Below, one piece after another: positions 33,997-42,793 of a stretch of DNA of 55,226 nucleotides. The notes beneath the pieces were generated by a model. It saw only the letters and a list, made by a program, of their open reading frames with translations, searched no databases and was not told the DNA's origin. The DNA comes from Herpetosiphonaceae bacterium (GTDB lineage Bacteria > Chloroflexota > Chloroflexia > Chloroflexales > Kallotenuaceae), in contig JACDGP010000020.1 of assembly GCA_013821605.1 (NCBI GenBank), positions 1 to 55,226 on the forward strand. Direction: 5' to 3'. Numbering within the stretch: position 1 is the stretch's first letter; each line of letters begins with the position of its first letter. The position numbers and the translations under genes are program-made.

Positions 33997-34686
33997 CTAG
34001 CGAGGTGGGGCGAGGCGGTAGCCCATACCCCACTCGGTCTGGATATACCGCGGCTGCTCAGGATCGTCGCCAAGTTTGTGGCGCAACCGCCGGACAAAGA
34101 CCTTGAGGTAGTGTGTGTCACCCGTATATTCGGGTCCCCACACCTGTTCAAGCAGAAATTGATGTGAGAGCACCGTACCGGCATGCCGTGCCAGTTCTGC
34201 CAGTAGGCGATACTCCGTGGAGGTCAGGTGGATGAGCGTGCCCCGAACCCGCACCTCATGCGTCGTGAAATCGAGCGTCACGTCTCCTACAGCCAGCTGG
34301 GGGTGAGATGGCACGGGTGATCCACTTGCGCGACGCATCAGCGCCCGCAAACGTGCCAGGAGTTCGAGGTGATCGAAGGGCTTGGTCAAATAATCATCCG
34401 CGCCAAGATCAAGCGCACGGATTTTATCCAGCATTGCGTCGCGCACCGTCAGCATCAGGATCGGTACTTGTGAAATTTCTCGAATGCGCCGACAAACCTC
34501 GAAACCATCGGGCGCTGGCATCGTGACATCAAGCACCACCAAATCCGCTGGCTCTACGGCAAAGGAGCGCAGTGCTTCGCTACCATCGGATGCAATTTGC
34601 ACTTGGCAATCCGGCCAAGTCATCCGGGCACCGAAGGCTACCACCTCCGCAACGTCACGAGCGTCCTCAGCAATCAGCAGCTTCAA
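33997..34686 (-). CDS. OmpR-family response regulator, last gene of hydrogenase-like operon
   Basis: A 229-residue regulator. The start is TTG at 34686 with AGAAGG 6 bases upstream; GTG at 34692 is the alternative. The receiver domain has the acidic pocket AEDARD, phosphoacceptor D53 in LVVLDVTMPAPDG and the Lys in DDYLTKPFDHLELL. The winged-helix output domain has LIHLTSTEYRLLAELARHAGTVLSHQFLLEQVWG and YLKVFVRRLRHKLG, ending WGMGYRLAPPR (KdpE-like). It follows the NuoH-like gene by 41 bases on the same strand, so it is probably cotranscribed with the membrane complex. No kinase is adjacent. Confidence 0.9.
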   Translation of the reverse strand: MKLLIAEDARDVAEVVAFGARMTWPDCQVQIASDGSEALRSFAVEPADLVVLDVTMPAPDGFEVCRRIREISQVPILMLTVRDAMLDKIRALDLGADDYLTKPFDHLELLARLRALMRRASGSPVPSHPQLAVGDVTLDFTTHEVRVRGTLIHLTSTEYRLLAELARHAGTVLSHQFLLEQVWGPEYTGDTHYLKVFVRRLRHKLGDDPEQPRYIQTEWGMGYRLAPPR

Positions 34687-34727: not shown

Positions 34728-35531
34728 TTATAGCTGGAGTGCCAGCAACAACACGCCCACCACCGCCAGCGGTACCAGCAAGTTCCACCACCAGCGTAAT
34801 CCCCAATGGAGCCGTTGCTCGACCACGGTGCCCCGCAAGCCGCGCCCGATCGCTGCCAAGGCGATGATGGTGATCACTTGCGCCAAGGTGGCGAGCGGCA
34901 TTGCCACCCCTGTCACGACCACCATGAACGTTGCTGCCAGTGCCAGCAGCGTGGTTTCTCGTAGCGTAAGGAGCAACGCAGCCACCGGATGAGTTGGACG
35001 GGGCAAGCTTTTGGTCCACGCCGACGGCTTGGCCGGGCCAAACGGTGGCCAGTTCAACGCAAGCGGGAGTGCGAGCAGCCCTGCGACCGTCGCTACGGCG
35101 CGCGCTACGACGTTGCCCTCGAGCGCTGCGCTCCATGCGACGCTCACTCCGAGCCACAGTGCCGCCCGTCCAGCCATCGTAAGCTGTGCTTCTCGCGTGG
35201 CCAGCCGGTTGATCTGTGGATCAGCATGACTAAGGGCCGGTAGCAACCATAGCAGCTGTGATGCCTCGATCAACCCCCACAACAGCCATAGGTTGGGTCG
35301 CGGTGCCCCTGCCGCTGCCATCGGCCAGGGCAACAAGGCCAGCGCTGTTGCCTGAGCAGCTACCGCCCCCAGCCAGCTTAAAGGCGTCGCCGCCTGACCC
35401 AGCCCAACGATCCCCCGGATGAGCAGGCCAAGCCGACCATGCACGAGCCCCATCACGACTATAAGTACTACCACCCATAGTATGCCAGTATACAGCAGCA
35501 CCAGTCCCAAACTATGCAGAATGTCTTGCAC
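34728..35531 (-). CDS. NuoH/HyfC-like membrane subunit, divergent
   Basis: About 267 residues (GTG start at 35531), with about eight transmembrane helices such as LGLVLLYTGILWVVVLIVVMGLV and LLALAATFMVVVTGVAMPLATLAQVITIIALA. Position and the pattern LWGLIEASQLLWLLPALSHADPQINRLATREAQLTMAGRAAL correspond to the NuoH/HyfC region that reads AE..R.PFD..EAE.EL..GY..EYSG in complex I. Most of the acidic residues of that quinone-site loop appear missing. It lies between the small-subunit gene and the response regulator. Membership in the complex is firm by context; function of the loop is doubtful. Confidence 0.72.
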   Translation of the reverse strand: MQDILHSLGLVLLYTGILWVVVLIVVMGLVHGRLGLLIRGIVGLGQAATPLSWLGAVAAQATALALLPWPMAAAGAPRPNLWLLWGLIEASQLLWLLPALSHADPQINRLATREAQLTMAGRAALWLGVSVAWSAALEGNVVARAVATVAGLLALPLALNWPPFGPAKPSAWTKSLPRPTHPVAALLLTLRETTLLALAATFMVVVTGVAMPLATLAQVITIIALAAIGRGLRGTVVEQRLHWGLRWWWNLLVPLAVVGVLLLALQL

Positions 35532-35553
35532 GGTTAGGGCCTCATCTGAGCAC

Positions 35554-35937
35554 TCATGGTCGCTCCTGCACGGCGCGTAGCAGCACATCGACAATCACCT
35601 TAGGGACCGGCGGGCAGCCGTCGACTCGGCCATTCACCATAATTTGCTGCTCCTGATCCTCCCCAGCCCATTGGCCGATGCCGCCCTGCCCGAACGGTGT
35701 ACCGTGCAGTGCACAACGCCCGACGACGACCAACGGCAGGTGCGCACAATACGTTTTCAGTGTTCGTCGCAACGCGCCCTGGATCGCAGGCATGGCAGCT
35801 CCGGTCAGGGCCACCACCTGTGCCTCGGCCGGGGTTTGGGTTAATGCCAGCTCCGGCGCTGCAGCTACGGTCGCCTGTAGCTCGGCTCCACAGCCGCCGC
35901 AGCCACCGGCGTCCAGATGAAAAACATAGATCGGCAC
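35554..35937 (-). CDS. NuoB/HyfI-like small subunit with [4Fe-4S] site
   Basis: A 127-residue hydrogenase/complex-I small subunit. Four cysteines in family positions are kept: C13 and C16 in LDAGGCGGCGAEL, C75 in VVVGRCALHG and C108 in VDGCPPVPKVIVD. These match the proximal (N2-type) cluster ligands of group 4 hydrogenases (CxxC, GxC, PGCPP). C64 is extra. It starts MPIYVFHLDAGG and lacks any export signal, so it faces the cytoplasm. It abuts the preceding NuoN-like gene without a gap. Confidence 0.82.
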   Translation of the reverse strand: MPIYVFHLDAGGCGGCGAELQATVAAAPELALTQTPAEAQVVALTGAAMPAIQGALRRTLKTYCAHLPLVVVGRCALHGTPFGQGGIGQWAGEDQEQQIMVNGRVDGCPPVPKVIVDVLLRAVQERP

Positions 35938-37335
35938 TTATCCCGCTCCTACGAAGGGTAGCCCCTGTGTAATCGTCGTGATCGGTTCGAGAAACAGATG
36001 AGGAAACAGGCCGCCTACCACGCCCAGGCCGATCAGCACGAGCAGCAATAGTCGTAAGGATAGCGGTGCATAATCGGGCACAACGGTCGGCAACAGCTGA
36101 ACCTCATCATACGAGGCCGGATCAGCAGTGGCTACTTGCGGGCGCAGCAAGAAATTCTGGATCAGCTGTGCCACTGCCAGTGCCAGCAAGAGCAGGCCAA
36201 TACCCCCCACGGCCAACACCTGCGGGTGACGGCGCAACGCTCCAATCACCAGTGCCAGCGGGGTAAAACCTTGCAACGGCGGCACGCCTAGCAGCGTCAG
36301 CAGCGCCATCATCAAGCCGGTCGCCGCCAATGGTCGTTCGCGTAACAAGCTTGCCGTCTCGGTGCGACCGGCCACACGCCGCTCAAGCAAGCTCAGGCTC
36401 ACGACCAGCAACGCTACACTCAAACCGTGTCCGATCAGTAGTGCCAGCGCGCCCACCACGCCCAGCTGTTGGCTGCTTGCGAGCCCCAGTGCGATGAAGC
36501 CCCAATGTGCTGTCAAGATGAACATCAGCGCGCGGCGCGGTGGAGCCAGCAGTGCCCACGCCCCGCCACCCAGGACCGTAATGCTCCCCAGCGCCAGCAC
36601 CAGTTGCTGGCTCAGCGGGTTACTCAACAGCTCAGGCTGGACATCCAGCGTTGTGACGATCAGCAATAATGCTAGCAGCTGGAGGCTACCGGTCACCAGC
36701 CCCAACGCCGGCAGTGTTGTTTCTGCGGCAAGCTCGGGTAGCGCCAGGTGAAATGGCACCAACCCCAGCAGCAACGCCCAGCCCAACACAATCAAAGCGA
36801 GGGCGAGCCGTTGGCCGGGCACTGCTGTCTGCAGCATCAGCCCAATGAACAGCAGGGTCACGCCCAGGAACACGAGCAGCAGAAACTTGAGTGCCGTGCC
36901 GATTGTTGCTGGCGCGGTCAGAGCCGCACTTGTGCTGGGCAGGTCCAGGATCAGCCAGACGGCTAGGCTCCCGGCGATCAGCATCAGGACCGTCCCCAGC
37001 AGGGGTGTTGCCAACAGCGCAATGCCGGCTCCACAACTCAACAGCAACAGTGCGATCGCCGGGGTATGTTCGCCCTGTGGCAGGGCGCAGCTGACCAGCA
37101 GGCTGACCAACGTCCCCGCGACCACGAGGCCGAAGACCAGTTGGGCACTACCTCCGAGCACCACGCTCAAGCCCAGGACGCGTAATGGATCATCGACTGG
37201 CGAGCGCATCACGATCAGCAGTTCGACCAGCGTTGCTGCGCTCGCCAGTGCTGCGGCGAAGGCTGCTGCACGCCGCAACAGCCAGCAACTGCCAGCCATC
37301 GCACACGGCCAGGCGATCAGCAGTACCGCATTCAT
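35938..37335 (-). CDS. NuoN/HyfF-like antiporter-type membrane subunit
   Basis: A 465-residue polytopic protein with roughly 13 helices. LALALIVLGWALLLGLVPFHLALPELAAET corresponds to helix 7 of NuoL/M/N, which normally reads K.xxxPFHxW; the lysine is not there. LAPPRRALMFILTAHWGFIALGLASS matches the helix 8/9 region (xxKRxLAYSSIxHxGxxLxGL) with Arg in place. GHGLSVALLVVSLSLLERR matches HAxxKxxLF, again without Lys. The start codon overlaps the stop of the HyfE-like gene by 4 bases (ATGA). It is a membrane-arm subunit by homology; proton translocation is doubtful. Confidence 0.8.
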   Translation of the reverse strand: MNAVLLIAWPCAMAGSCWLLRRAAAFAAALASAATLVELLIVMRSPVDDPLRVLGLSVVLGGSAQLVFGLVVAGTLVSLLVSCALPQGEHTPAIALLLLSCGAGIALLATPLLGTVLMLIAGSLAVWLILDLPSTSAALTAPATIGTALKFLLLVFLGVTLLFIGLMLQTAVPGQRLALALIVLGWALLLGLVPFHLALPELAAETTLPALGLVTGSLQLLALLLIVTTLDVQPELLSNPLSQQLVLALGSITVLGGGAWALLAPPRRALMFILTAHWGFIALGLASSQQLGVVGALALLIGHGLSVALLVVSLSLLERRVAGRTETASLLRERPLAATGLMMALLTLLGVPPLQGFTPLALVIGALRRHPQVLAVGGIGLLLLALAVAQLIQNFLLRPQVATADPASYDEVQLLPTVVPDYAPLSLRLLLLVLIGLGVVGGLFPHLFLEPITTITQGLPFVGAG

Positions 37336-38084
37336 CGTAGGGTGCCCCCCGGCTGCCTGCTCACGAGCCCTTCCCGCTGGCTGTACAGCTCATCGAGATC
37401 CAACGTTTGCAGCCGACCATACAACAGTCCGCATAGGTAGGCCACGACCAGTGCGAGGACGATCATGGCGATATGCAGCAGAGCCAGCACCGGCAGCCCA
37501 ATACTCGTGCTCCCATCCAGGTAGAAGAGCTGTAAGCCGAGGCCGATCAGCAAGATGCCGCCGCCCAGCTTCAGCATATCCTGCGCGATGATCAATTGTA
37601 TCATTCCGGCCAGCACCAACAAGGTCCAGCTATACTGCGCATCCAGCGAGCCGCCCGCCGCACCGGTCAAGCGATATATGTGCGGCAGGAGCGTGGTGGC
37701 TACGAGGGCGATCACGAAGCCCGCTACCGGTAGCAGGTAGTCACTCCATTCCGCCGGCTGCGCGAGCCGGAAGGAGCGGCGGGCAACCCGCCGTAGCTCC
37801 ATCAGACTAACCTCATCAAGCTGTTCTGGCCGTTCGTCGCGCCCAAAGGTTAAGCCGGTCACGAGCAAGATGCCGACGACCACCACACCACTCACGACCT
37901 CAGCGAGTGGCAGGATCCAACGCGTGATGCCCAAGGCGAGGTCGGTCGCCAGCGGTTGCTGGAAGAGGAAGCCTGCGACACACATATATACCACCAGCAA
38001 GGCGACCACTAGCCACAACCACTGCCGCGCCAGCAACATCCCGCCCGTGGCCAGCGCCAGCCCACTCAACAAGAGCCAGTCCAT
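37332..38084 (-). CDS. HyfE-like membrane subunit
   Basis: A 250-residue membrane protein with about seven helices (LLLSGLALATGGMLLA, LWLVVALLVVYMCVAGFLF, ILPLAEVVSGVVVVGILLVTGL, YLLPVAGFVIALVATTLLPHIY, LLVLAGMIQLIIAQDMLKLGGG, IGLPVLALLHIAMIVLALVVAYLCGLLYG). A charged cytoplasmic loop near 80-115 (GRDERPEQLDEVSLMELRRVARR) follows the third helix. Length and position between HyfB- and HyfF-like genes agree with hydrogenase-4 component E, itself a NuoK-like protein. The start is 2 bases after the stop of the HyfB-like gene. Confidence 0.7.
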   Translation of the reverse strand: MDWLLLSGLALATGGMLLARQWLWLVVALLVVYMCVAGFLFQQPLATDLALGITRWILPLAEVVSGVVVVGILLVTGLTFGRDERPEQLDEVSLMELRRVARRSFRLAQPAEWSDYLLPVAGFVIALVATTLLPHIYRLTGAAGGSLDAQYSWTLLVLAGMIQLIIAQDMLKLGGGILLIGLGLQLFYLDGSTSIGLPVLALLHIAMIVLALVVAYLCGLLYGRLQTLDLDELYSQREGLVSRQPGGTLR

Positions 38085-38086
38085 GT

Positions 38087-39772
38087 TTATGGCCCGCTAC
38101 CACTGGCCACGGCCAGCAACACCACAATGACGACTGCCAGCACGAGGCTTAGGTAGTAGCGCCGGGCGAGGAGACGCGTCAGTGGTTGAGCTGTCGTCGC
38201 CATACGCGTAAGGACTTGTTCACTGCTATGCAACACCGCTTGGAAGGCGTCGAGGACGTTTGGAGCGAGCACCGCTCGTAAGCCGCTCCAGGGGAGCGCC
38301 CAGCCGGGCTCCTTGTCAAGCGGTTCACCTCCGGCAAAGACCGGCGGCGCTTCCGTCTGGCGTAGTCGCCGGTTCGCTAACGCCAAAAGGAGCAGTGCGC
38401 TACATATCCGTAGACCGCCAGCTATGATCGTTTGCGGCACGATCCGGCCCGGCTCCAGCAGCAACAGCTGCACGATGTCCCACACGCTGCCAAGCACAAG
38501 CACGAGTGCTCCTAACAGCGCGGGCATGCTCCCTGGTTCACTGTTGTGTTGCACTCCTGCATATGCCGGGCGACGAATACAAGCCGCCAGCGGCGGTATC
38601 AGGGCCAGGGCCAGCAGAGCATGCGCGGCAAATACGACTGCGACCAAGGCACCGGGTAGACGCGCAAGCAACTGGGCATGCAGCAGGTAACCCGCCAGCA
38701 GTGGGGCTCCGGCCACCGAAGCTGCGGCCACCCCATAGATCAAGGCGACCCGGCGCAGGGGTGTTGTGAATGGCGGCAGGTCAGCAATCTGGGCCGTGCC
38801 AGCTGCTTGTTCGAGCGCACTTACTGCCCAGCCGAGTAGTACGGTGCTCCAAGTGGCATGAATCAGCAATGCCAGGGCCGGGCCACGCCCCCCTAGCGCC
38901 AAGCCCACCAGACCCAATTGGGCCGTCCACTGTCCGGCGACGATTTGGCTCAGCCGGGTGGCCGTAACAGCCCAGACCGCACCCCCCACCAGTAGCAGGA
39001 TACCCCCCAATGAGCAGGCCACAAAAGCCGTGGGTGACCAGATACCCGGGGTTGTGGTCATGCTATGGACCAGCAACCAGCCACCCAGTGTTGGCAAGCC
39101 CAGCACAAGTGCGAGCGTTTGCAGCAAGGCTGGTACGCGCCCCCGCCCAATGCGTAGCGGACCGCTGCACAATAAGAGCAAGCAGCCCAGAGCCCACACC
39201 GGGGTCGTCGTGAGCAGGGTTGCATCCCACATCGTTGCTGCTGCCAGCGTCAGGGAGCCTGCAACGAGCGGCATGATCCCGCCAACCGTCGTGCCACGAT
39301 CACTCGGCACACTGCTTAGCTCAATTAGCAGACCACCTAGCCCGGCCATCCCGACCCCGGCTACAGCGACCAGCCCATTGACCGCCCCAATGGTTACGCA
39401 ACTACCCGTGACGACGAACAACAATCCCAGCACGGAGAGGGTCCCGCTTTTGGCTCCTGCAGCTACAGGCAAGCCATATGCGGCGATGCCGCCAGCTCCC
39501 AGCAGCAGCACTACGACCATCATCAGATCACGTCCCGCACTCCACTCCATCGCTAGGTCGCTTGAGCGCAGGCCAATGCCCAACCAATCCACCGATGGCG
39601 TTCGCAGTGGCCAGCCCCAGCGTGGCAGGAGTGCTGCACCGGCTGCTAGCAGCAGCAGCAGCATATTCATCCAGGTGAGCTGGCGCACCGTCACGCGCCC
39701 ATTGGCCAGCAGGACGATGACGATCCCCAGCAGCGGGAGCAGCAGCGAAGCGAGCGGCAATTGGAGTGTCAT
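38087..39772 (-). CDS. NuoL/HyfB-like antiporter-type membrane subunit
   Basis: A 561-residue polytopic protein with about 14 helices. The start is the ATG at 39772, which overlaps the stop of the large-subunit gene as ATGA; a GTG at 39784 is the alternative. Helix 7 reads LGCLLLLCSGPLRIGRGRVPALLQT where NuoL has AKSAQxPxHxWLPDAMxxPTPVSA. Helix 8 reads ATRLSQIVAGQWTAQLGLVGLALGG where NuoL has DLKRxLAYSTxSQxGYMxxALG. A later stretch, HATWSTVLLGWAVSALEQ, matches HAxxKAxLFLxAGSVIH. In all three the conserved lysine is absent by eye. The C-terminal helix is followed by no lateral extension. Confidence 0.78.
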   Translation of the reverse strand: MTLQLPLASLLLPLLGIVIVLLANGRVTVRQLTWMNMLLLLLAAGAALLPRWGWPLRTPSVDWLGIGLRSSDLAMEWSAGRDLMMVVVLLLGAGGIAAYGLPVAAGAKSGTLSVLGLLFVVTGSCVTIGAVNGLVAVAGVGMAGLGGLLIELSSVPSDRGTTVGGIMPLVAGSLTLAAATMWDATLLTTTPVWALGCLLLLCSGPLRIGRGRVPALLQTLALVLGLPTLGGWLLVHSMTTTPGIWSPTAFVACSLGGILLLVGGAVWAVTATRLSQIVAGQWTAQLGLVGLALGGRGPALALLIHATWSTVLLGWAVSALEQAAGTAQIADLPPFTTPLRRVALIYGVAAASVAGAPLLAGYLLHAQLLARLPGALVAVVFAAHALLALALIPPLAACIRRPAYAGVQHNSEPGSMPALLGALVLVLGSVWDIVQLLLLEPGRIVPQTIIAGGLRICSALLLLALANRRLRQTEAPPVFAGGEPLDKEPGWALPWSGLRAVLAPNVLDAFQAVLHSSEQVLTRMATTAQPLTRLLARRYYLSLVLAVVIVVLLAVASGSGP

Positions 39773-40845
39773 GCTTCCGCGCACGTTACACAGGACGCTA
39801 GGGATGCGATAACGAGGGGTCCATCTTCCGCTGCTTGACCCACCAGCAAAGCCCGTAGCAACCAGCGATCAGCCAACTGCGGACCATCGATGATAACCTC
39901 GGTCAACTGTACGCCATCACTGCGCAGCATATAGCGTAACGGACCGGTCGGTGCCTCGACCTCCACCGTCGCACTGCCCTCTGGCAGGGAATCCAGTGGG
40001 TCGCCACGCCACAGTCCCTCCGGTAACTCCTGGAGCAGTCGCTGCGCCAAGCTGATACTTTCATAGCTTTCGAGCAGCCAGATAAACAAACGACTTTGCA
40101 CATCGCCGCCCCGCTGCTGGACCAGCCGGGGTTGCCATACATCATAACCTGCATAGGGTGCATCACGTCGAATGTCGGTGCTTGAGCCGGCGGCCCGTGC
40201 AAAGACCCCGCGTACGGCAAATTGCGCCATCAAGGTAGCGCTCAGCGTGCCGATGCCGCCGGTGCGCGTGCTTAAGCCGCGCGTATGAATGAGTCCTTCG
40301 ATCACCTGTCGTAGCTCGCGCTCCTGCTTGCCGAGCAACGCCCGCAGTGCGCGTACTTCGTCACTATGGAGATCATGCTGGACGCCGCCGGGTAGCGCGA
40401 ACTCATGAACGCACCGCTGGCCGGTCAACATTTGCAGCCCTTGGAGCGTGGCTTCGTGAAGCTTCAGCAGCGTCGTATGGACCAGCTCCAGACCCAGCAG
40501 TTCGACAACGCCCGCCGCAGCGTGTACATGCGAGGCGACCCGTTCACCTTCCGCAACCAGCAAGCGTAACACCTGCGCTCGCGGCGGCACCTCAAGCCCG
40601 GCGATGGCTTCCAGCGCCAATGTCCAGGCCAGCAGATGATGATGTCCGTGGACGCCACAGATGCGGCTCACGAGGGGGGCGGTGTTACGAAGATCAAGCC
40701 GCAGGAGGCGCACGGCACAATCGCGAGCGGCGTAGCCATCGCGGAGTTCGATCTCCGTGATCCGCTCGTCATCGACGTGCAAGCTGATTCGTTGTGGTCC
40801 GCGCCACACCGTGCCAAACGGCCCGAGCGCAAGTTGGTATGCCAC
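39769..40845 (-). CDS. Group 4 [NiFe]-hydrogenase large subunit/NuoD-like protein with altered metal motif
   Basis: A 358-residue protein, first gene of the operon. The N-terminal motif reads SRICGVHGHHHLL: C63 is kept, but the second Cys of RxCGxCxxxH is H66, and H70 is kept. The C-terminus ASCVTCAEA keeps the CxxC pair (C352, C355), but the usual Asp before it (DPCxxC) is Ala. Other parts match HycE/NuoD (HVHAAAGVVELLGLE, EFALPGGVQHDL, TRTGGIGTLSA). The start is GTG at 40845 behind GAAGGGCG. With three of four Ni-Fe cysteines, it may bind a different metal or be an energy-converting-hydrogenase-related (Ehr) type protein. Confidence 0.82.
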   Translation of the reverse strand: MAYQLALGPFGTVWRGPQRISLHVDDERITEIELRDGYAARDCAVRLLRLDLRNTAPLVSRICGVHGHHHLLAWTLALEAIAGLEVPPRAQVLRLLVAEGERVASHVHAAAGVVELLGLELVHTTLLKLHEATLQGLQMLTGQRCVHEFALPGGVQHDLHSDEVRALRALLGKQERELRQVIEGLIHTRGLSTRTGGIGTLSATLMAQFAVRGVFARAAGSSTDIRRDAPYAGYDVWQPRLVQQRGGDVQSRLFIWLLESYESISLAQRLLQELPEGLWRGDPLDSLPEGSATVEVEAPTGPLRYMLRSDGVQLTEVIIDGPQLADRWLLRALLVGQAAEDGPLVIASLASCVTCAEA

Positions 40846-41985: not shown

Positions 41986-42058
41986 AATATAGCCGTATAT
42001 TGTACCATTCGCGGCTGTGGCCGCTCTGAGACGCGCGCTATGGGGAGATCTACTAATA

Positions 42059-42793
42059 ATGCTCGAAACGCTTGATCTATCGCTCAAGCTGCCCAAGGAC
42101 AAGTACAACGACCAGCTTGACGAACTCCAAGCTGCGTTGCGTACCCTCCACCTGCGCATGGTCGAACGGCATCGGCCCTTGATCATCGCTTACGAAGGCT
42201 GGGATGCGGCGGGCAAGGGTGGCAACATTAAGCGCTTGACCGAGCGGCTCGATCCACGCTTTATAACCGTCTATGGCATCAGCAAGCCGACACCGGAAGA
42301 GCTCGATCATCATTACCTGTGGCGCTTCTGGACCAAGCTCCCATCCCGCGATCATACCGTGATCTTCGACCGATCCTGGTATGGCCGGCTGCTGGTCGAA
42401 CGAGTCGAAGGCTTTGCGACGACCACCGAATGGCAGCGCGCCTATGATGAGATCAACGAGTTTGAGCGCTTGTTAAGCGATGACGGCGCGATCATCATCA
42501 AAATCTGGCTGCATGTATCGCCAGAAGAGCAACTGCGCCGCTTTGAAAGTCGCATGGCGGACCCGGCCAAGCGCTGGAAGATGAACGATGAAGATTGGCG
42601 CAACCGTGGCAAATGGGACGAATACCTCACCGCCGCCGAGGAAATGTTCACCCGCACCACCACGTCCTACGCTCCCTGGACCTTAGTGGAAGGGGATAAC
42701 AAGCGCTGGGCCCGCATCAAGGTCCTGCGAGCTGTCGTTGATCGTCTGCAACTAATCCTCGGCCCCGCGCCCGACGTGGCGAGCGCCACCTAA
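42059..42793 (+). CDS. ppk2: Polyphosphate kinase 2 family protein
   Basis: A 244-residue PPK2 that transfers phosphate between polyphosphate and nucleotides. The start is the ATG at 42059; a longer frame upstream is unlikely. The Walker A loop is [16 protein letters not shown]. Family motifs follow: [36 protein letters not shown] (with the Walker B Asp in FDRSWYGR), then [16 protein letters not shown] and [18 protein letters not shown], and [18 protein letters not shown] at the end. One-domain length fits PPK2 class I or III; direction (ADP or GDP synthesis, or AMP use) cannot be read off. It is divergent from rlmN. Confidence 0.93.

Follow-up and report, generated by a model that had tools for sequence, protein, structure and literature searches.

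The stretch of DNA studied here (the window) comprises 55,226 nucleotides of a Herpetosiphonaceae bacterium of the order Chloroflexales (assembly GCA_013821605.1, contig JACDGP010000020.1) and carries on its minus strand six intact reading frames, tightly packed and in part overlapping, in the order LSU-B-E-F-SSU-H, where LSU and SSU stand for large and small subunit. Their products make up a variant of the group 4 hydrogenase/Ehr kind of membrane complex, from which the charges of the known proton channels have been lost. The six genes are the following.

39769..40845, minus strand: LSU, NuoD/HyfG-like large subunit, 358 aa (Pfam Complex1_49kDa, 8.6e-31; NiFeSe_Hases, 3.2e-6)
38087..39784, minus strand: B, NuoL/HyfB-like antiporter subunit, 565 aa (HHalign, AlphaFold fold match, residue alignment)
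37332..38084, minus strand: E, membrane protein in the HyfE position, 250 aa (place in the cluster)
35938..37335, minus strand: F, NuoM/NuoN/HyfF-like antiporter subunit, 465 aa (Pfam Proton_antipo_M, PF00361, 3.3e-11, 43.4 bits; TIGR01972, 8e-17)
35554..35937, minus strand: SSU, NuoB/HyfI-like Fe-S small subunit, 127 aa (Pfam Oxidored_q6, 1.1e-8)
34728..35594, minus strand: H, NuoH/HyfC-like membrane subunit (AlphaFold, Foldseek to NuoH/HycD)

Folds and channel residues of the window copy

No Pfam family was matched by B, E or H, and the best NCBIfam scores of B were 6e-4 and 0.033. The comparison of the B profile with a NuoL/HyfB-type profile gave 99.5% in HHalign (E 5.7e-23), and the AlphaFold model of B (mean predicted local distance difference test score, pLDDT, 80.5) matched NuoL chains with Z of about 31 (e.g. 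E. coli 7p7e_L, 476 residues, root-mean-square deviation 3.5), the broken transmembrane helix 12 (TM12) of the NuoL type being kept in the model as helices 344-358 and 364-375. The profile match of H alone was weak (HHalign 38.7%); its AlphaFold model (pLDDT 89.9) matched E. coli NuoH in Foldseek with TM-scores as high as 0.75. Because B keeps the NuoL fold and H the NuoH fold, the missing residues described below do not arise from a slip of the alignment, a cause excluded by the HHalign result and the fold of the B model. The identification of E as HyfE by profile was dropped; its profile matched neither HyfE nor NuoK of E. coli, and E is therefore called HyfE-like by its place only.

The first-pass annotation of the window had noted that the channel Lys seem absent from the NuoL- and NuoN-like proteins. 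B and F were aligned by MAFFT with E. coli NuoL, NuoM, NuoN, HyfB, HyfD, HyfF and HycC and with complex I subunits of the host genome (reference set of ten subunits, three of them from the complex I operons of the host genome), and every tested position proved to be lost. The window F has Leu for the TM5 Glu, Leu189 for the TM7 Lys, Leu360 for the TM12 Lys/Glu, and for the TM8 Lys either Gln (NuoN column) or Leu (NuoM column). The window B has Gly for the TM5 Glu, Leu204 for the TM7 Lys, His369 for the TM12 Lys and Leu/Ala/Thr for His334/His338/Lys342 of TM11. Lysines at shifted positions were not found, none lying within 10 residues of the channel columns in either protein; B contains only two Lys in total (residues 112 and 491) and F a single one (150). 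A site which the annotation had listed among those with a lost Lys, GHGLSVALLVV, was misassigned: it matches H348 of NuoM, a column that holds no Lys in either NuoM or NuoN, and the window protein retains the His.

The ten references all have the TM5 Glu and a Lys or Glu in TM12, and nine have the TM7 Lys; the host genome's own NuoL, NuoM and NuoN keep nearly all channel residues. The exception in TM7 is E. coli HycC (Leu208), already in print, which has a non-conserved N-side path and is proposed to use an alternative route (PMC9474812). Loss of the TM7 Lys alone has precedents, namely HycC and the third NuoM of the host genome. This NuoM-like protein, from the second complex I operon (L034, 4863-6449), has Leu at the position in question.

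In reconstituted antiporter modules a single replacement of such a central or terminal residue, K385I in one module and K235M or E377Q in another, stops proton conduction (PMC11496545). The residues by which proton-pumping antiporter-like subunits (NuoL/M/N, MrpA/D) are recognised are missing from the window B and F and, judged from the alignment, the known proton wires are gone from both. The absence of most quinone-loop acids from the NuoH-like subunit, also put forward in the first-pass annotation, was borne out: the loop of H, FGPAKPSAWTKSLPRPTHP, has no Asp or Glu at all, and the only E-channel acid of HycD retained is at E130 (REAQ).

The cluster resembles E. coli Hyf and Hyc in the subunit types LSU, B, F, SSU and H, in the hydrogenase-type CxxC of the SSU and, as regards HycC, in the absence of the TM7 Lys. 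It differs from them in having no ferredoxin subunits of the HyfA and HyfH types, and the TM5 Glu, the four Ni-binding Cys with the C-terminal tail and the E-channel acids that Hyf and Hyc own are here wholly or partly lost. Complex I, of which the host genome has two operons (L033, L034), shares with the cluster the NuoD-, NuoB-, NuoH-, NuoL- and NuoN-type subunits and their folds, whereas NuoC, NuoI, NuoE, NuoF and NuoG are lacking in the cluster. An NADH module, NuoC or NuoI was not found among the six genes, nor recognised in the scanned neighbouring genes of the window.

Relatives and selection

In a phylum-wide set of 400 genomes the E subunit was found in 60 (E<=1e-4), and within the order it was found in 74 of the 82 genomes (E<=1e-10), Chloroflexus aurantiacus among them; it is present in 55 of the 56 good genomes (completeness >=90%, contamination <=5%). 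A search for B over 158 genomes of the class gave a match in 12, including the genome of the window, and a scan of genome contigs for LSU gave a single relative, the canonical group 4 cluster L021. No mention of the cluster was found in the accessible parts of the C. aurantiacus genome paper, which describes two complex I operons (PMC3150298), or of a paper on C. aggregans, which reports two sets of complex I and a pair of hydrogenases (PMC8004040).

Residues were counted in the loci fetched, which cover part of the 74 carriers (F 43 rows, including two fragments of one genome, L028 and L141, and one of the two L027 F pieces; B 39, LSU 40 and SSU 23 rows), with gapped rows omitted from the channel counts and with L021, L033-L035 and L144-L147 excluded from the family counts. 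The F subunit of the relatives has neither the TM5 Glu (0/41) nor the TM7 Lys (0/41); Arg stands at the TM7 position in 41/41, Asn at TM8 in 31/41, and Lys or Arg at TM12 in 29/40. In B the TM5 Glu, the TM7 Lys and Lys342 of TM11 are each present in 0/38, and TM12 has Arg in 33/38. In the Chloroflexus-type rows (f2 g6) TM12 carries Trp in B and Tyr or Ser in F. Even the Arg of the relatives at F TM7 and B TM12 is missing from the window copy, which on these residues is the form most stripped of charges.

Earlier steps of the loss are, to judge from the residues, visible outside the order. The B of genome G085 retains a partial set: the Glu of TM5 and the Lys of TM7 are still there, and TM12 has Arg. 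Stand-alone B-E-F trios of other Chloroflexota have the same three genes but no LSU, SSU or H adjoining:

L145, 5334-9136: stand-alone B-E-F trio
L147, 5427-9707: stand-alone B-E-F trio
L146, 5657-9560: stand-alone B-E-F trio

The B of L146 has the canonical TM5 Glu, TM7 Lys and TM12 Lys, and those of L145 and L147 are without the TM5 Glu and TM7 Lys.

The ratio of nonsynonymous to synonymous substitution rates (dN/dS), computed over 32 genome pairs of relatives where computable, was mostly 0.01-0.3 with a maximum of 0.42 (H, G035/G037), and in f3 pairs did not exceed 0.07 in any of the four genes; B was the fastest or among the fastest-evolving subunits. Purifying selection acts on the complex in the relatives. 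In a tree built from LSU, E and F by a quick method without bootstrap, each of the families f1-f4 falls on one side of a branch, which fits the prediction of vertical descent. The window has the longest terminal branch within the order (0.99). A markedly faster evolution of the window copy was considered and dropped, the sister f1 paths being nearly equal in length (about 0.8-0.9).

The redox half of the complex

The window SSU retains the hydrogenase-type CxxC (C13, C16) together with C75 and C108, that is, the four Cys expected of an N2/proximal cluster. The four fetched SSU copies of f3 (Herpetosiphon-type) have no cluster Cys, and that of G051 lacks one. No SSU lies between F and H in the f2 genera g6, g7, g14, g17, g19 and g21 or in g26, a genus of f4 (Roseiflexus-type); genome searches there gave only weak matches in longer frames (5e-6 to 3e-4), which are probably NuoB of complex I, and none in G033 and G035. 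Genome searches showed the SSU to be present in G004, G005, G020 and G022, and it is missing from most Chloroflexaceae examined. The Fe-S subunit is dispensable in the order. Outside the order, the SSU homologue of G085 (L128, 5190-5678) is without cluster Cys, and the LSU there keeps four Cys.

For a complex with its Fe-S site kept and its proton wires lost, a new role such as redox sensing had been suggested at first. The lost wires do support some other role. Redox sensing fails as the general account, because the Fe-S cluster or its subunit is dispensable while the rest is under purifying selection; in the window lineage alone the complex may still have a redox role.

The window LSU contains RICGVH (C63, with His66 replacing the second Ni-binding Cys), H70 and a C-terminal CVTC (C352, C355), and it stops three residues past the CxxC, with no cleavable tail. 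It does not have the four Ni-binding Cys of group 4 [NiFe] hydrogenases, and Gly and Ala take the places of the GPxH His and canopy Asp seen in 5/5 reference rows. Of the 40 LSU rows, 27 have Cys at the second Ni position, 5 (f1) have His, 6 (f3) Asp and 2 Ala; all four Ni-type Cys occur in 23/40, and C63 with C352 and C355 in 35/40. C63, H70, C352 and C355 together would make a fitting site for one metal ion, for example zinc.

HypD was not found in G051, G052 and G055 (f1), in G043-G048 and G050 (f3), or in G056, G057 and G070-G081 (f4); it is missing in the carriers G057, G070, G071 and G078 though their LSU retains four Cys. As many carriers have no HypD, it is improbable that these LSUs generally use a [NiFe] centre. 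The HypD of the window's genome was not counted as evidence that the LSU undergoes [NiFe] maturation, because its hyp operon is a separate one on another contig. That operon (L079, 4636-15777) has accessory genes and lies close to the contig end; its structural genes may fall in an assembly gap, and a genome search gave no [NiFe] large subunit besides the LSU.

Exporter genes and the role of the complex

In f2, f3 and f4 the genes of an ATP-binding cassette (ABC) ATPase and of a permease are found downstream of H. The ATPase comes nearest to the DrrA and GldA models but does not reach the cut-off of either. The permease family (about 250 aa, e.g. L112, 11124-11903) is without Pfam or NCBIfam match. 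It occurs in 78 of the 82 genomes of the order and in all 56 good ones, and 56 of the 73 genomes that hold the permease with E or H have it within 6.5 kb of one of these on the same contig. The remaining 17 are six f1 genomes, the window's included, and 11 in which permease and E/H are on different contigs, many of them short. The Herpetosiphon-type genomes have LSU-B-E-F apart from SSU-H, and the ABC pair stays with SSU-H. The f1 permease adjoins a polA-like gene in the three genomes looked at (L150-L152).

Promoter and terminator scans gave no clear excess over shuffled sequences. Two further features of the window lie near the cluster:

33997..34686, minus strand: OmpR-type response regulator just downstream of H, its domains beginning at residue 161 of a long open reading frame
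42017-42793: gene of polyphosphate kinase 2 (PPK2) in head-to-head arrangement with an RlmN-like gene, upstream of the cluster

The explanation that we tentatively favour is that a group 4-derived complex lost both its redox chemistry and its pumping and took on another membrane role, perhaps together with an exporter. A membrane complex of the group 4 hydrogenase/complex I type would have descended vertically within the order, losing the [NiFe] chemistry and then the proton-carrying charges, with the Fe-S cluster or its whole subunit also lost in some lineages, and its retention would be due to a membrane role acquired outside respiration. On this view the foot of LSU and H and the membrane arm of B, E and F would be a non-pumping membrane assembly and, in most of the order, the same locus would make an ABC-2-type exporter (ATPase plus permease), probably assisted or gated by the complex. 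The residue losses, the folds of B and H, the spread, the purifying selection in the relatives, the dispensable Fe-S subunit and the gene neighbourhood are direct observations; that protons are not translocated by the known route and that the exporter is a partner we infer.

Several observations weigh against this explanation. The four Cys of the Fe-S site are present in 18 of the 23 SSU copies, the window's among them, and C63, H70, C352 and C355 occur together in 33 of 40 LSU rows, a joint retention which suggests a metal site still in use. The Arg at F TM7 and B TM12 of the relatives might serve a proton or anion route. The f1 relatives of the window are only about 30-49% identical to it, too distant for dN/dS of the window copy. 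In all six f1 genomes, including the window's, the permease is on a separate contig, so that the exporter partnership is not shown for the window lineage; moreover, the adjacency elsewhere may be inherited rather than functional, because all ABC-adjacent carriers belong to one order. A stricter form of the explanation, in which both halves of the chemistry would be lost order-wide and a non-redox, non-pumping machine would work with the ABC exporter, a replacement metal site C63/H70/C352/C355 occupying the old [NiFe] position, is doubtful.

It is somewhat unlikely that, at least in the window lineage, a residual Ehr-like redox complex has been preserved, passing electrons through the SSU cluster to quinone without pumping, or sensing redox state. 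The clear NuoD/HyfG homology of the LSU, the four Cys of the window SSU and the response regulator that follows H speak for it. The loss of the Fe-S ligands in f3 and of one in G051, the disappearance of the subunit from much of f2, the Gly and Ala at the GPxH His and canopy Asp positions of the window, and the empty quinone loop speak against it, and in two f1 relatives (L023, L025) the listed flanking genes do not include the response regulator. Ehr itself combines group 4 hydrogenase-like and antiporter-like subunits with a defective [NiFe] site (PMC6349859). The present complex is like it in having a group 4-like LSU with antiporter-like subunits, one of the four Ni ligands being replaced in the window LSU and all four being kept in other rows. 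It is unlike it in that Ehr is suspected of coupling redox to charge translocation, whereas here the antiporter residues are lost and the Fe-S subunit is dispensable; the redox-to-ion coupling expected of Ehr is, on these residues, unlikely for the window-type complex. The flanking genes that were inspected included none recognisable as an oxidoreductase partner.

An ion or proton route built from other residues (Arg in TM7 and TM12, Asn in TM8, His), of the kind proposed for HycC (PMC9474812), which itself has no TM7 Lys, has to be considered in view of the Arg and Asn so widely kept by the relatives. It is nevertheless an unlikely solution: B is without the TM5 Glu, TM7 Lys and TM11 Lys in 39/39 rows, the Chloroflexus-type rows replace the TM12 residues by Trp in B and by Tyr or Ser in F, and the window retains His369 alone at the channel positions.

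Decay of the window copy toward a pseudogene, to which the longest end branch in the order and the loss of the F TM7 Arg, the F TM12 Lys/Arg and the B TM12 Arg kept by relatives might point, is quite improbable given the six intact packed frames, the almost equal sister f1 paths, the retained Fe-S Cys and C63/H70/CxxC of the LSU, and the strong purifying selection elsewhere in the order. A working group 4 [NiFe] hydrogenase in the four-Cys lineages is hardly credible, for against the 23 LSU rows with all four Ni-type Cys stand the carriers among these with no HypD found (G057, G070, G071, G078), the failure to find an SSU in Chloroflexus, the His at the second Ni position in the window and the place of the host HypD in a hyp operon of a different contig.

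If the group 4-derived complex has indeed taken on another membrane role, the cluster offers a testable non-respiratory use of the complex I fold. Automatic labels such as 'NADH dehydrogenase' or 'hydrogenase-4' on these genes would mislead throughout the order. Since this order of filamentous bacteria, which has cultured members, keeps the architecture while the residues have gone stepwise, its natural sequences separate positions needed for stability from those needed for pumping only.

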